Below are positions 3,838 through 34,856 of a stretch of DNA of 64,000 nt, piece after piece. The stretch comes from Margaritispora aquatica (taxonomy: Eukaryota > Ascomycota > Leotiomycetes > Helotiales > Discinellaceae), in the NCBI GenBank assembly GCA_007644065.1, contig VJWN01000007.1, positions 2,510,167 to 2,574,166 of the forward strand, in the 5' to 3' direction. Below the pieces are notes generated by a model that saw only the letters and a list, made by a program, of their open reading frames with translations, did not search any database and was not told where the DNA came from. Position 1 is the first letter of the stretch. The number at the start of each line of letters is the position of its first letter. Both the position numbers and the translations under genes were made by a program.

Positions 3838-5726
3838 TCAAACCTCATCCTCTTTCCACACATCATACTTCTCTTCATTCCTTAGCCAAGACCACCAACT
3901 CTCTTTGACCACTTCCGGAGGTTCCTCGAGCTTCGATTCCTCAACTCTCTTCTGCACTCCGAATTCGTTCCATGGCCCATCAGCAGTTTCCCGCATTCTT
4001 TTCAACTCAAGCTCATCTGCTCCTCTTAATCTCTCTGCTTCATCGACACGGTCCTCACCTCTCGTCCCTTCGGACCAATAATCCAATTCAACTTCCATAC
4101 TCCACTCCCAAGCTCCACCTTCTATTTTAGTCATTACTTTCAAATCATAACAGACGTCGACTTCAAGCGCAACCTCAACTTCTACTTCGCCCTTGGCTCG
4201 CTTAGGCAAATTTTCCAGCTCCACGGTGCCGAGCAGTTTGTTCCCTTTCGCCAGTGATCTCTCGCCTTCATAGATCTTGATCGCGAATTTTTCTTGTCCA
4301 TCTCTCACTGTACCAAATATCTTGGACTTCCTAGTTGGTATCACTGTTCCGTTGTTGAAGATCTTCGCAAATGAACCGTCGGCTGCCTCGACACCAAGAC
4401 TAAGAGGTAAGACGTCGCAGTAAGATATATACACTCCCCAATCAGACTCCCAACCTCGCGCTGCGGAGGCGATACCTCTGATAATGGCATCTTCTGGACT
4501 GATTGACTTGTTCGAAGGGACGTGGTAGGTGCGAGCTTTATGTCCTAGGTGTGCTTCAATACTCGACTGAATGAGTGAGACGTGTGCAGGGTTTCCCGTA
4601 AACATGATTTCCTCGATTTCAGACTTCGTCAGGTTGTTTGAATTCAAGACCTTGTCCACTAAATCACATGCTCTTAATGAAAGTACCTCCGTATCAACGA
4701 TATTCGGAAAAACACTATCACCACATCCCTCATCGGTGGCGAATGGGATAGGTTCACCATCGTCACGAATGATGGCTATATTCGATTGATGCTCCTCGAT
4801 TTGGTAGATCAGTGAGTTGTAAACCTTTGGGCGACATGGATGTGTGTTTTGCGGGGCATTGGAGCCATATGCTAACGAAGCAGCGACCGTGTCAGTGATA
4901 GCACGCTCGACTTCAAGCCCTACCAATGCAGCTGCCTCCTTGACACCTCTTCTTTGCAAATCATTCGATCCAGAGGGAATGGTCATATGTGCATGAGTGA
5001 TTGGAAGCCTGAGTTGATTCGTGGCCATCTGTTTAAGGTCTTTGATGAGATGAGATAGAACGTCTTCGGGCGTGACCCAGGTAGGCTTGAGGTTGGTTTC
5101 TATCTTGATACTTAGAGTGCCGTTTTCAGCTATATTTGTGATGAGGGCGCTTTTTGCAAGCCTCTTTTGGGATTCAGGCAGTGAGAAATTGACTCCAAGC
5201 AAGGAACTTTTTATGTTAGATATGTAAATGGAAAAACGGTCTGAGGTAATATGCAACTCACAATATGTCACATATTGTGTGCTTAGGATCTATATCCATT
5301 CGGTCCTTGGCTTCGAATCCGACCAAAGGTGGTCCTCTTTCAACATAGGCTACGCATGATGGTATGGAGGAGCGACCTTTCTTATCAGTAAAGATTTGAA
5401 GCTTGTCATCTTTGAAAATGGCAGCGCGTGAATATGATCGTCCAAGTTCTATACCGATCACTGACCGCAACGCAGCAATATTAGCTGACAATTACAATCA
5501 TACGAAGTCCGACGCACCAGGACCACATACCATTTTTGGGAGCAGGATAATATGTATTAAAACCAGAGAAAAAGTGTGACCAATCGTTAAGCCAATGCGA
5601 GACTCTGTCTTGAAGGCCGTCTCGAGCAATACCTGAGATCACAGGCCAGCACAAAACGGCAAAAATGCAAATGAAGAGTGCAACGAGAGTTCTCGTCGAG
5701 GGATGTGTTCGCTCTGTCAATTGCAT
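3838..5726 (-). CDS. membrane-anchored, divergent Hsp70-like ATPase
   Basis: Exons (minus) 5726..5531, 5484..5262, 5206..3838; 595 aa, all phases consistent. Residues about 15-36 form one hydrophobic segment (signal anchor or signal peptide). An Hsp70 nucleotide-binding domain follows: phosphate-1 loop GIELGRSYS (BiP-type proteins have GIDLGTTYS), then SSIPSCVAY, LVGFEAKDR and DPKHTI as in canonical Hsp70s. Later come MFTGNPAHVSLIQ (degenerate adenosine motif), the linker-like DVLPLSLGVE and a beta-type substrate domain (GTVIPTRKS). The C-terminus is Glu-rich with no HDEL or EEVD. Family knowledge: Hsp70s are ATP-driven chaperones. Changes at the phosphate loop suggest altered or weak ATPase activity (inference). 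Could act in the ER lumen or as a membrane-tethered co-factor. Confidence 0.85.
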
Positions 5727-22790: not shown

Positions 22791-23999
22791 ATGAGCGGAA
22801 ATTCAGCACCAGTCGCACAAGCGAAACCAACTATTGTGCTCATCCATGGGCTTTGGTGAGCAACTGTTTTCTTCCTTACACAGCTTGAACTGGAGACGAA
22901 CCCCATCGAAATTCACGTTTTCAAGACACTACTCCTGAGACACTGATCAGCGCTACTGCTTCCCCTTTCCGAGAAATTCGCTAAGAAAATATAGGATGAC
23001 TCCTCTCAGCTGGGAACACTGGATCACCTTCTTCGCTAGCAAAGGTTACACAGCCATCGCGCCTGGCTGGCCTGGAATCGACGAGCGTACCGTTGCTTCC
23101 GTCAAAGATGACCCTTCTGCTCTTGTAAGTCTCTAGCTTCTTCATTCACCTGGTTGCATCACGGTTTGGCAACTCTGGAGACGCATTGCACTAAAGTTCC
23201 CTCCGGCTCTAACCTACACTCCTCGCTTTTATTCAAAATCAACAACTAACACATTCTTCTCACTACACATAGGCCGGCCTCAACATCCACACAATAGTCG
23301 ACCACTACGCCGCCATCATCGCCGCCCTACCCACACCACCCATAATAATCGGCCACTCCTTCGGTGGGCTCTTCACGCAAGTCCTCCTCTCCCGCGGCTA
23401 CGGCGTCGCAGGCGTGGGTATTTCCCCAGGCCAACCCTCCGGCGTCGTCGCTTTACCACCTTCAACGATCAAGTCCTCGCTCGGCATCCTCGGCAACCCA
23501 CTGACCTACAACAAAGCGGTCCCGATCTCTGAGAAGACCTTCCATTATAACTTCGGCAACCACCTGAGCGCTGAGGCCTCGAAGAAGGCGTGGGAGCGCT
23601 ATGCTGTTCCAGCAGCGGCCCATGTCCTGTGGCAAGCGGCGCTGAGTCTGTTTGGTGGTGGTGAGGGCTCTGTGGAATGGGGGAAGAAGAATCGGGCCCC
23701 GCTCTTGTTGCTCGGTGGGACGAAGGATCATGTTGTTCCTGCTGCGGTGGTGGGGGAGCAGAGCAAGAAGTATACTGGTCCGGTGAGTTTTAAGTTCCTT
23801 TTTTGTTTCTTCAGTTGTGGGTGTAGGTCTCGGTGTGGAAGGTGTGCTTGCTACCTAGCTGATGCTAATGTGTATGGTGCAGGCTATCGTCGAAGTTAAG
23901 ATCTTCGAGGGTAGAACACATGGCATTGTCACCCAGGATGGCTGGGAAGAAGTCGCTCAGTATGCACTCAGCTGGGTCGAGGGCAAGACAAAGGTCTAG
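22791..23999 (+). CDS. alpha/beta hydrolase (AB hydrolase-6 type)
   Basis: Exons 22791..22855, 22995..23124, 23273..23782, 23883..23999; 273 aa with exact phases. The start is the ATG at 22791 right after TTGGTTCAAA. Motifs: KPTIVLIHGLW (oxyanion HG), GHSFGG with nucleophile Ser94, GGTKDHVVP (Asp217) and GRTHGIV (His248), giving a complete Ser-Asp-His triad. No signal peptide, so cytosolic. Family knowledge: this group includes small esterases, lactonases and haloalkane-dehalogenase relatives; the substrate cannot be read from the sequence. It is followed by a tRNA and a GST, which may be chance. Confidence 0.88.
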
Positions 24000-24615
24000 A
24001 TGGAAATCCTGCAGCGGCCTTGAGATAGTCTTCTTTGGATAGTTTAGTCGTATTGTATTTGTTTTCCAAGTTCGCATCTTCAGTTTAGCACCGTGCCTCA
24101 ACGTTAGTCTTAGACAGCATTTCGCTCGTTCAGGAAGGAAAGTTTATTACATCACTTCAAGTCATAGAAAGATATTTACTGCACGTATTTCGAAACTTTC
24201 AATACAATCGCCACATATTTGCTTTTAGGTGACTAATTATATATATTCACTCCCAGAGAATGAAGCTTGTGTTTGGATTATCCTCAAAGATGGTAGTAGC
24301 GTATACATCATTTTTCGTAATTATCGAAAATTAGAATCCTTCGTTTTCCCCAAGCTTCAGGAATCACTTCTAAATCTTGAATCTTACATCTAAATGCCAT
24401 TCTAGCACCCATTATCTCTATATGCACATACATATTCAGAACGCTAATTATATAAATTGCCCTGCCACAACTTATATCTCGAGCCCCTCCCCCCAAACGC
24501 ATCTACATGCATCACAGACAGACCCACTCCACAATCCACAATCTACAATCTACAATCCACAAGCCACCCCGCACAACACCTCACCTATCGCCAAAATATC
24601 ATACATTGCAACCAC
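24000..24615. other. intergenic, upstream of tRNA-Ser(CGA)
   Basis: 3' region of the hydrolase, then a short tandem of CTACAATC/CCACAATC units near 24530-24560 and an AAAATATCATA stretch at about 24594 that could act as an upstream TATA-like element for Pol III (inference). Confidence 0.5.
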
Positions 24616-24653
24616 GGCATTGTGGCAGAGAGGTCTAATGCGATTGACTCGAA

Positions 24654-24684
24654 CTCTGTAACTCACCGTTATGGATATATAGAT
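24654..24684 (+). other. canonical tRNA intron (position 37/38)
   Basis: 31 nt inserted after A37 of the anticodon loop, the standard place for eukaryotic tRNA introns cut by the Sen endonuclease. Confidence 0.85.
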
Positions 24685-24710
24685 ATCAATTCTCTTCGGA
24701 GGCGCAGGTT

Positions 24711-24767
24711 GTAAGTTATTCCTGTCTCTTTAAGCCAGTAAGGGAATGTGGTATTAATTCAGAATAG
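24711..24767 (+). other. 57-nt insert in the T loop of tRNA-Ser, spliceosomal-intron-like
   Basis: Begins GTAAGT, has an ATTAAT-like branch candidate at about 24753-24758, and ends AATAG. It splits T54-T55 from C56 of an otherwise perfect TTCAAAT loop. No target-site duplication is seen. Confidence 0.8.
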
Positions 24768-24785
24768 CAAATCCTGCCAATGTCG

Positions 24786-25314
24786 AAATGTGTGACTTTA
24801 TTTTTTTTGGAGGTTTTTTGGGGGGCATATGCTTTTACAACGCTCGAATTCGTTTGCTTGGTGCGGTTCTGTTTGTGGTGTTGTTCAGGGGAGGTAAGCG
24901 AGCTCAGGGAGGCTGGGGGCGTTAGATTGAAAGCTTAATTCATAATTTTCTGTCTTTATTTTGTACAAGAAATCTTTTTTCAATAATTGAAATGTAAGGT
25001 TTCCCATGCCAAAACTATATAACTCGAGTCAACATGATTTCATATCTCGCTTGTTTAGTCGTTGCTCTCGTGTTATTGTTACTTGCTTTTCCTCTACCAG
25101 AGCGCTGACATCATGAGTCGGGCTCCTAAATTTGAGGTCATAGCTCCTTGCTCTAAGCGGGTGTGTGGAACCATATTAGGTTATCGCCGAAGGATGCTTA
25201 GAAAGCGAGTGATGTACACAAATATTGCTATATGCTGAGTCGGAATCGAAGCTAACAAAGCAATCCCTCATCATCCCTTGACCCCTCATCCGGCTAAAGG
25301 TAATAAAATCATAT
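24786..25314. other. intergenic, between tRNA and GST
   Basis: T-rich and G-rich stretches after the tRNA terminator; no gene seen. Confidence 0.5.
24801..24808 (+). terminator. Pol III terminator, T8
   Basis: Run of eight T, 16 nt after the discriminator base of tRNA-Ser(CGA). Confidence 0.8.
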
Positions 25315-26407
25315 ATGAGGCCTCTCTTCCGAGTCGCCCTCCTCCTCGCTCTCACACTCATGTTCCACTCACCTCTCCAACGCCTCTACCAAACCTCCAG
25401 ACACCTCCTCAGAGCCACATCCCCAATCCTATCCCACACACCCAAAGCAATCACAACACGCAGCATGGCCTCATCCACCTCCCCGCCCCGCCCAACCGGC
25501 CTGATCGCCACCTCAGGAATCGAGCTCCTCACCTTCGGCACGCCCAACGGGCACAAAGCCTCCATCCTGCTCGAGGAGCTCAAAGCCGCCTACGGCAAGC
25601 AATACGTCTTCCAGAGTATCAACATAATGGAGAACATCCAGAAGGAAGATTGGTTCGTCAAGCACTCGCCCAATGGCCGGATCCCGGCTATCGTGGATCA
25701 TGATCGCAATGGCTTTAGCGTGTTTGAGGGCGCGGCGATTCTGGCGTATTTGACGAGGCATTATGATGTTGAGCATAAGTTCTCGTTTGAGGACCCGGAT
25801 GATTTGAGTCGGTGCGAGCAGTGGGTTGCATGGCAGCATGGAGGGCTGGTGAGTTTGTTCTTTCGACACTTGTTTATACATTGTTCGGTATTCATCATCA
25901 CATTACTCAATATCAGATGACCTGAGCCCGAATTCTTACTCGAATCTTATACTAACTTAAAAACAGGGCCCAATGCAAGGCCAAGCAAACCACTTCTACC
26001 GACTAGCCAAAGAGCGGATTCCCTACCCGACACAACGCTACGTAGGCGAAACCGAGCGTCTCTACGGAATTCTCGACAAGCAGCTCGCGTCCCGTGACTA
26101 CCTCGTCGGGCCCGGCAAGGGCAAGTACTCCATCGCGGACATTGCCAACTTCTCGTGGGTGAACGTCGCATATTTCGCGGGCGTGGATCTGAGCCGCTTC
26201 CCGAACGTGGAGAAGTGGTGGGAACGCATCAATGCCAGGGAGGCGGTCCAGAAGGGGACGAGCGTGCCGACTGAGAGTCAGCTTGTTAATCAGGCGTATA
26301 GGAGGCGCGTGAAGGAGGAAGACGAGTTTAGGGCGAAGGAGGAGGAGTTGAAGAAGTTGGGGGATGAAGCGAAGGAGAAGTATGGGTATAAGTATTCTTC
26401 TCCTTGA
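25315..26407 (+). CDS. glutathione S-transferase, Ure2-like, with N-terminal leader
   Basis: Exons 25315..25848 and 25967..26407; 324 aa. GST N-domain (about residues 68-150): LLTFGTPNGHKASILLEEL, PNGRIPAIVD (the cis-Pro of the glutathione site), VFEGAAILAYL (the E-S/G motif binding the gamma-glutamyl group). GST C-domain (about 170-290): YLVGPGKGKYSIADIANFSWV, the conserved N-capping/hydrophobic staple region. The N-terminus from 25315 has a hydrophobic then Arg-rich 50-residue leader; a second Met at 25465 (MASSTSPP) starts the usual cytosolic form. Family knowledge: Ure2-like/YghU-type GSTs conjugate or reduce electrophiles and peroxides. The tail is Lys/Glu-rich coiled coil. Tail-to-tail with a drug-efflux pump. 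Confidence 0.9.
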
Positions 26408-34775: not shown

Positions 34776-34856
34776 CGACACCTATGAGATTTGAACTCAT
34801 GCTCCCGAAGGAACTAGCTTTCTAGGCTAGCGCGATAACCACTCCGCCAAAGTGCC
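34776..34856 (-). tRNA. tRNA-Ser(AGA)
   Basis: Reads on the minus strand from 34856. Acceptor GGCACTT pairs with AGGTGTC, discriminator G. Anticodon stem CTAGC/GCTAG around loop CTAGAAA gives anticodon AGA (serine). Long variable arm with TTCG loop and T arm TGAG-TTCAAAT-CTCA, all intact; no intron. Confidence 0.95.

Follow-up and report, generated by a model that had tools for sequence, protein, structure and literature searches.

One tRNA-Ser(CGA) gene of Margaritispora aquatica is interrupted within its T loop by a 57-nt segment that has the ends of a spliceosomal intron, in addition to the intron at position 37/38. The gene occupies 24616-24785 of the window (the whole stretch of DNA that was analysed, 64,000 nucleotides), and its cloverleaf can be read only after both segments are left out. 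The split gene with its intron-like insert is confirmed as an observation, and it is unusual. The explanation that we favour, with roughly even confidence, is that a real intron of spliceosomal type has left a redundant copy of tRNA-Ser(CGA) silent or almost silent.

The features of the locus, which is flanked by an alpha/beta-hydrolase frame (23273-23899) and a GST frame (25315-25920), are collected in Table 1. ARAGORN calls no tRNA on the unaltered DNA of 24616-24785, and the Rfam tRNA model gives the unaltered locus 18.5 bits, under its cut-off of 29. Once the 57 nt are omitted, ARAGORN reports a tRNA-Ser(CGA) at a score of 107.3, with an intron of 31 nt; with the 37/38 intron alone omitted and the 57 nt kept, it makes no call. 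Leaving out both segments gives 117.1, the top score among the five tRNA-Ser forms compared (range 115.1-117.1). In this trimmed form all 20 core pairs are present (23/23 including the variable arm), and 18 of 18 positions expected from general tRNA conservation fit. A first-pass annotation of the same DNA had already described a tRNA with a standard 37/38 intron, a second segment in the T loop, intact stems once both are removed and exons without decay; its coordinates and letters for the locus are correct, and the pair count, the conserved positions and the ARAGORN calls agree with that description. The T8 terminator that it placed after the gene is there as well.

Table 1. Features of the split tRNA-Ser(CGA) locus, in positions of the window
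Feature	Position	Strand	Basis
Exon 1 (acceptor 5' strand, D arm, anticodon arm up to position 37)	24616..24653	+	Structure; ARAGORN on joined exons
A box TGGCAGAGAGG, intact by eye	24623..24633	+	Sequence against the A box consensus TRGCNNAGNGG
Canonical 37/38 tRNA intron, 31 nt	24654..24684	+	ARAGORN i(40,31) once the 57 nt are left out
Exon 2 (position 38, anticodon stem 3' strand, variable arm, T stem 5' strand, T54, T55)	24685..24710	+	Structure; ARAGORN on joined exons
B box part one, GGTT	24707..24710	+	Sequence
57-nt spliceosomal-intron-like insert, T55/C56	24711..24767	+	GTAAGT...TAG; sole copy found in the genome
5' splice-site-like hexamer GTAAGT	24711..24716	+	8.08/11.61 bits, Fusarium frequencies in the available text of PMC5677156
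Branch-site candidate TTAAT (minority type TTRAY), A 10 nt before 3' end	24754..24758	+	Motif search
Exon 3 (from C56: T stem 3' strand, acceptor 3' strand, discriminator G73)	24768..24785	+	Structure; ARAGORN
B box part two, CAAATCC	24768..24774	+	Sequence
T8, Pol III terminator-like	24801..24808	+	Sequence
Second T run, T6	24814	+	Sequence

The boundaries of the insert are set by tRNA structure and are thus independent of splice signals. Every removal of 30-89 nt with a start at 24690-24774 was tried as long as 40 nt or more remained and the acceptor 3' strand kept its place, and a removal passed if it produced TTCNA together with 5/5 T-stem pairs; splice signals played no part. A single removal passes, that of 24711-24767, and it happens to start with GTAAGT and end in TAG. 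This is the position between T55 and C56 given in the first-pass annotation, which had also pointed out the GTAAGT start, the TAG end and an internal ATTAAT, all of them present. The boundaries cannot be slid in either direction (the first base of the insert is G against C in the exon, the last is G against T), and no target-site duplication is found in the locus sequence, where the ends of the insert share no base with the opposite flanks. The insert has a G+C content of 35%, compared with 46% in the window.

The 5' end of the insert is of the form GTRNGT and, taken with its exon flank GTT, scores 8.08 of a possible 11.61 bits as a splice site on frequencies printed for 2,022 introns of Fusarium, not of the host, in the available text of PMC5677156. 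By the same measure, scores of 4.15-10.02 bits are obtained for three window introns, in NDC80 and CLC; these were located by tblastn with homologues and bounded by eye, because an unsupervised search of the window for introns gave too much noise. Taking both strands, the window has 127,874 57-mers; with the insert counted, 26 of these reach its 5' splice-site score behind the same flank and three equal both this score and its AG end. The 3' end has a YAG in the form TAG, and the length of the insert equals the median intron length of 57 nt given for a core-gene set of Fusarium (PMC5677156, available text). Thus, the 5' splice site, the AG end and the length agree with fungal introns, as the description of the insert as spliceosomal-intron-like had implied. 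The resemblance has two weak points: the exon flank is TT/GT and not the usual AG/G, and a strict CTRAY branch site is absent from the insert. The ATTAAT contains a candidate of the minority type TTRAY, which accounts for about 4-5% of introns in the available Fusarium data (PMC5677156); by eye, CTGAT, CTGAC and CTAAC can be seen in the three window introns. As many as 25,902 of 127,880 window 57-mers carry (C/T)TRAY at a permitted distance, and the branch motif is therefore weak evidence.

The exons themselves look like those of a gene long maintained. Comparison of the split gene with other tRNA-Ser genes gives six two-sided pair changes against the second CGA gene described below, eight against each of two UGA genes and ten against the AGA gene, with one single-sided change in each comparison. 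From these paired changes and the intact exons, we infer that selection has maintained the split gene as a tRNA through most of its past. Random change breaks such a structure fast: three random substitutions left all pairs and checked positions intact in 795 of 20,000 simulated trials, so that the insertion, if the gene has been unselected since, must be young.

The internal promoter is directly affected. As first described, the B box is split as GGTT/CAAATCC, with 57 bp in between; T55 now precedes G, and the first half reads GGTTG for GGTTC. C56 is the B-box base to which TFIIIC is most sensitive. A substitute B box (GGTTCRANYCC with 0 or 1 mismatch) is absent from both strands of 24316-25085, where the one match with two mismatches lies on the minus strand. 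Between -65 and -25 of the split gene, the best match to TATAWAW is 4/7 and the longest A/T run is 3, the lowest values of the nine tRNA genes compared, and the A/T-rich stretch found upstream of the second tRNA-Ser(CGA) gene is not present here. An upstream TATA signal is relevant because yeast tRNA genes that carry a TATA box can be transcribed in vitro without TFIIIC, according to the available part of PMC3978253. No run of four or more T, which could serve as an internal Pol III stop, occurs in 24600-24800. As a separate observation, a short imperfect repeat, ACAATCTACAATCTACAATCCACAA, is found at 24530-24563, about 53-86 bases upstream of the split gene.

The second tRNA-Ser(CGA) gene of the assembly (42.36 Mb in 49 contigs) lies on another contig, at C16:420965-421066 (locus L072). 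Its T loop, TTCAAAT, is uninterrupted, its core pairs are complete (20/20), and ARAGORN scores it at 115.1. It has a 37/38 intron of 21 nt; introns at this position are also found in two tRNA-Ser(UGA) genes, and the three introns measure 20-24 nt. The number of tRNA-Ser(CGA) genes is at least two in the assembly. Three patterns for Ser(CGA) gave 204, 46 and 43 matches (100, 46 and 43 among those listed), compared with 230, 56 and 51 for the reversed-pattern controls; ARAGORN was run on the loci of 30, 30 and 1 of the matches, and the remaining listed matches were judged by their letters. TCG accounts for 21 of the 148 serine codons in four open frames of the window. Given the intact gene on C16, decoding of TCG need not depend on the split gene. 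The first-pass annotation had proposed a count of tRNA-Ser(CGA) copies in which an intact second copy would suggest that this one is dispensable, and such a copy is what we find. Two further observations concern the tRNA-Ser genes. The D stem of the C16 gene (L072:116-217) has C10-G25, whereas the four other tRNA-Ser genes compared have G10-C25. The window also contains an intronless tRNA-Ser(AGA) at 34776-34856 on the minus strand, its only tRNA called by ARAGORN and Rfam; a 25-base D/anticodon stretch of this gene occurs at four places in the genome, including its own.

A donor for the insert was sought in the same assembly. BLAST searches with the locus and with the insert each match their own locus only, and either half of the insert with up to three mismatches is found at this locus only in the whole assembly. 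As a control, a BLAST query with the Ser(UGA) gene of contig C4 returned itself and copies at 83% and 74% identity and missed both the split gene and the C16 Ser(CGA) gene, so the search is weak for short or diverged pieces; the searches with half-inserts cover near-identical donors, and old, diverged donors could remain. With a single copy of the insert found in the assembly, we reject an introner or mobile intron family, for which the first-pass annotation had suggested a search. A terminal-repeat element is likewise rejected: the 7-bp helix between the ends of the insert was reached by 488 of 5,000 shuffles. Patterns for a tRNA split in the same way were also run. In this genome, the strict form of the pattern finds only this locus (one match in the control), and the relaxed form gives 13 matches compared with 18 in the reversed control, so that the other 12 look like chance. 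In collections of genome contigs (6 stretches) and viral contigs (1 stretch), the patterns of the locus found bacterial or viral sequence without the 3' half; a 14-mer occurs in at least 120 stretches of viral contigs, and none of the 80 listed has a tRNA call.

The silencing that we favour can be laid out as follows. A U2-type GT-AG intron-like sequence would have entered the T loop of one of the two known tRNA-Ser(CGA) genes; it would have originated as an intron, for example by reverse splicing. With C56 of the B box replaced by G and the rest moved by 57 bp, TFIIIC would be expected to bind poorly, and the split B box, the missing substitute and the lack of any TATA-like element found make it most likely that the gene is silent, or nearly so, in Pol III transcription. 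The insertion could be tolerated because the uninterrupted C16 copy presumably supplies the tRNA that reads TCG. The split B box with no substitute, the intact sister gene and published expectation all support this explanation; in eukaryotes, tRNA insertions in the D or T arm mostly affect a single member of a set of synonymous genes, and the genes affected are regarded as supposed pseudogenes (PMC4090602). Our case resembles these in that one of several synonymous genes was struck, and differs from them in its precise intron ends and exons without decay. The main difficulty is one of timing. The undecayed exons require that the insertion be young if it is unselected, yet the donor of a young insertion should still be near-identical and turn up in the assembly, where none was found, unless the donor has been lost, the insert is of foreign origin or the segment never was a copied intron. 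Young, undecayed and donorless fit poorly together, and an old insertion under selection explains the exons and the missing donor more easily. Nor is the 'very recent insertion' put forward in the first-pass annotation a simple reading, as the assembly searches gave no donor copy.

The most serious alternative, which we nevertheless consider unlikely, is that the gene is a working split tRNA, with the T-loop intron removed by the spliceosome, the 37/38 intron by Sen and ligase, and the ends matured by RNase P and RNase Z. It would be transcribed either by Pol III with little help from TFIIIC or by Pol II read-through, the latter of which would account for the lost B box and also for how the spliceosome gains access. 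Such a gene would be expected to have intact exons, as observed, and a 5' splice site close to the consensus, the AG end and a length usual for introns suit it well. The missing donor, which suggests that the insert is not young, and the missing internal Pol III stop also point this way, and there is a precedent in the spliceosomal introns of fungal U3 and U6 genes (PMC5832005, available text). Against it stand the split B box with no substitute, the poorest TATA-like signal among the nine tRNA genes and the redundant intact copy on C16; moreover, the two U6 genes found in this genome are intronless (each matches its model end to end, over 108 and 106 bases), so there is no local precedent. 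For these reasons, maturation by two machineries, as the first-pass annotation had offered, is not supported by our results or is unproven. A nuclear tRNA that needs both spliceosome and Sen and whose transcription, perhaps through read-through by Pol II, dispenses with an intact B box would be a doubtful proposition on present sequence evidence, a shade more so than the splicing scheme taken by itself.

We consider it rather improbable that the 57 bp are a chance or repair-derived insertion in a dying redundant gene, with ends that resemble those of an intron by accident. The redundant copy, the lack of any family or donor found in the assembly, the weak branch site and an end helix of a strength not unusual in shuffled sequence would all agree with such an accident. 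It fits poorly, however, with the rarity of 57-mers that match both ends of the insert and with boundaries that are fixed by tRNA structure.

A second intron of Sen type at a non-canonical place is very unlikely. It would resemble the nuclear tRNA-Ile(UAU) of Cyanidioschyzon merolae, which has introns at 12/13, 37/38 and 53/54 with bulge-helix-bulge motifs (PMC9602550, available text); both genes combine a 37/38 intron with one in the T arm (53/54 there, 55/56 here), and the Sen endonuclease of eukaryotes is able to cleave bulge-helix-bulge substrates (PMC4090602). When the cloverleaf is forced, the fold predicted for our precursor places a 6/4 internal loop and then a 7-bp helix after the T stem. 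In this fold, however, the 3' junction G/C56 lies inside the helix and no bulge-helix-bulge is formed, in contrast to the hBHBh' motifs of C. merolae, and GTAAGT...AG ends would not be expected of Sen. Free folding with RNAfold keeps the T stem in neither the full precursor (z-score -0.82) nor the trimmed mature form; as it misses the cloverleaf of the trimmed form too, it says nothing on what the insert does to the fold. An artefact of assembly or sequencing is just as hard to credit, since searches of the assembly matched the insert nowhere else and its ends are precise and splice-like.

Other known systems share parts of the arrangement. In the nucleomorph of the cryptophyte Guillardia theta, tRNA genes carry insertions in the D and T arms, with excision confirmed there by RT-PCR (PMC4090602); those inserts are 3-24 nt long and belong to a reduced algal nucleus, and section 5 of that paper makes no mention of GT-AG ends. 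The introns of fungal U6 snRNA and U3 snoRNA are closer in kind, being GT-AG introns of about mRNA-intron length in small structured RNAs. According to the available text of PMC5832005, frequent interruption by introns is known among small structured RNAs for U3 and U6 only, and eight genomes have one intron-bearing and one intronless copy of U3. They differ from our case in not being tRNAs and in that the U3 introns have direct evidence cited from S. cerevisiae and N. crassa, whereas the intron of our gene is putative. Eukaryotic tRNA genes are described as limited to one intron in the available text of PMC8450103, and tRNA splicing as spliceosome-independent in that of a 2026 review (PMC13149111). 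The literature searched, whose coverage leaves out most subscription papers, yielded no published example of a nuclear tRNA with a GT-AG intron; the first-pass annotation had likewise known of no established nuclear tRNA case in this position.

If the gene does work as a tRNA, the spliceosome would be able to act inside a tRNA core, and a tRNA gene could outlive the loss of its B box. Even if it is silenced, the locus would be an intron gain caught with boundaries that are fixed by tRNA structure instead of by splice signals. Because ARAGORN and the Rfam gathering threshold both miss the unaltered locus, similar genes may go unseen elsewhere, and further cases may be hidden in other genomes.

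Some observations from the surrounding sequence may be added. The best named relatives of the NDC80 protein in the window are from Phialocephala, Hyaloscypha and Cadophora, genera of the Helotiales, at 83-84% identity. At 1395-2471 on the plus strand, an open frame of 358 aa has a Tle1-like phospholipase domain (PF09994), of a family named after bacterial type VI effectors. In a tRNA family search of the genome, in which 62 of 1,722 candidates were scored, 21 of the 61 matches fall on contig C38, where several come back at a spacing of about 33.7 kb (e.g. at 5297 and 38998); C38 looks like a mitochondrial genome, assembled past its own start.
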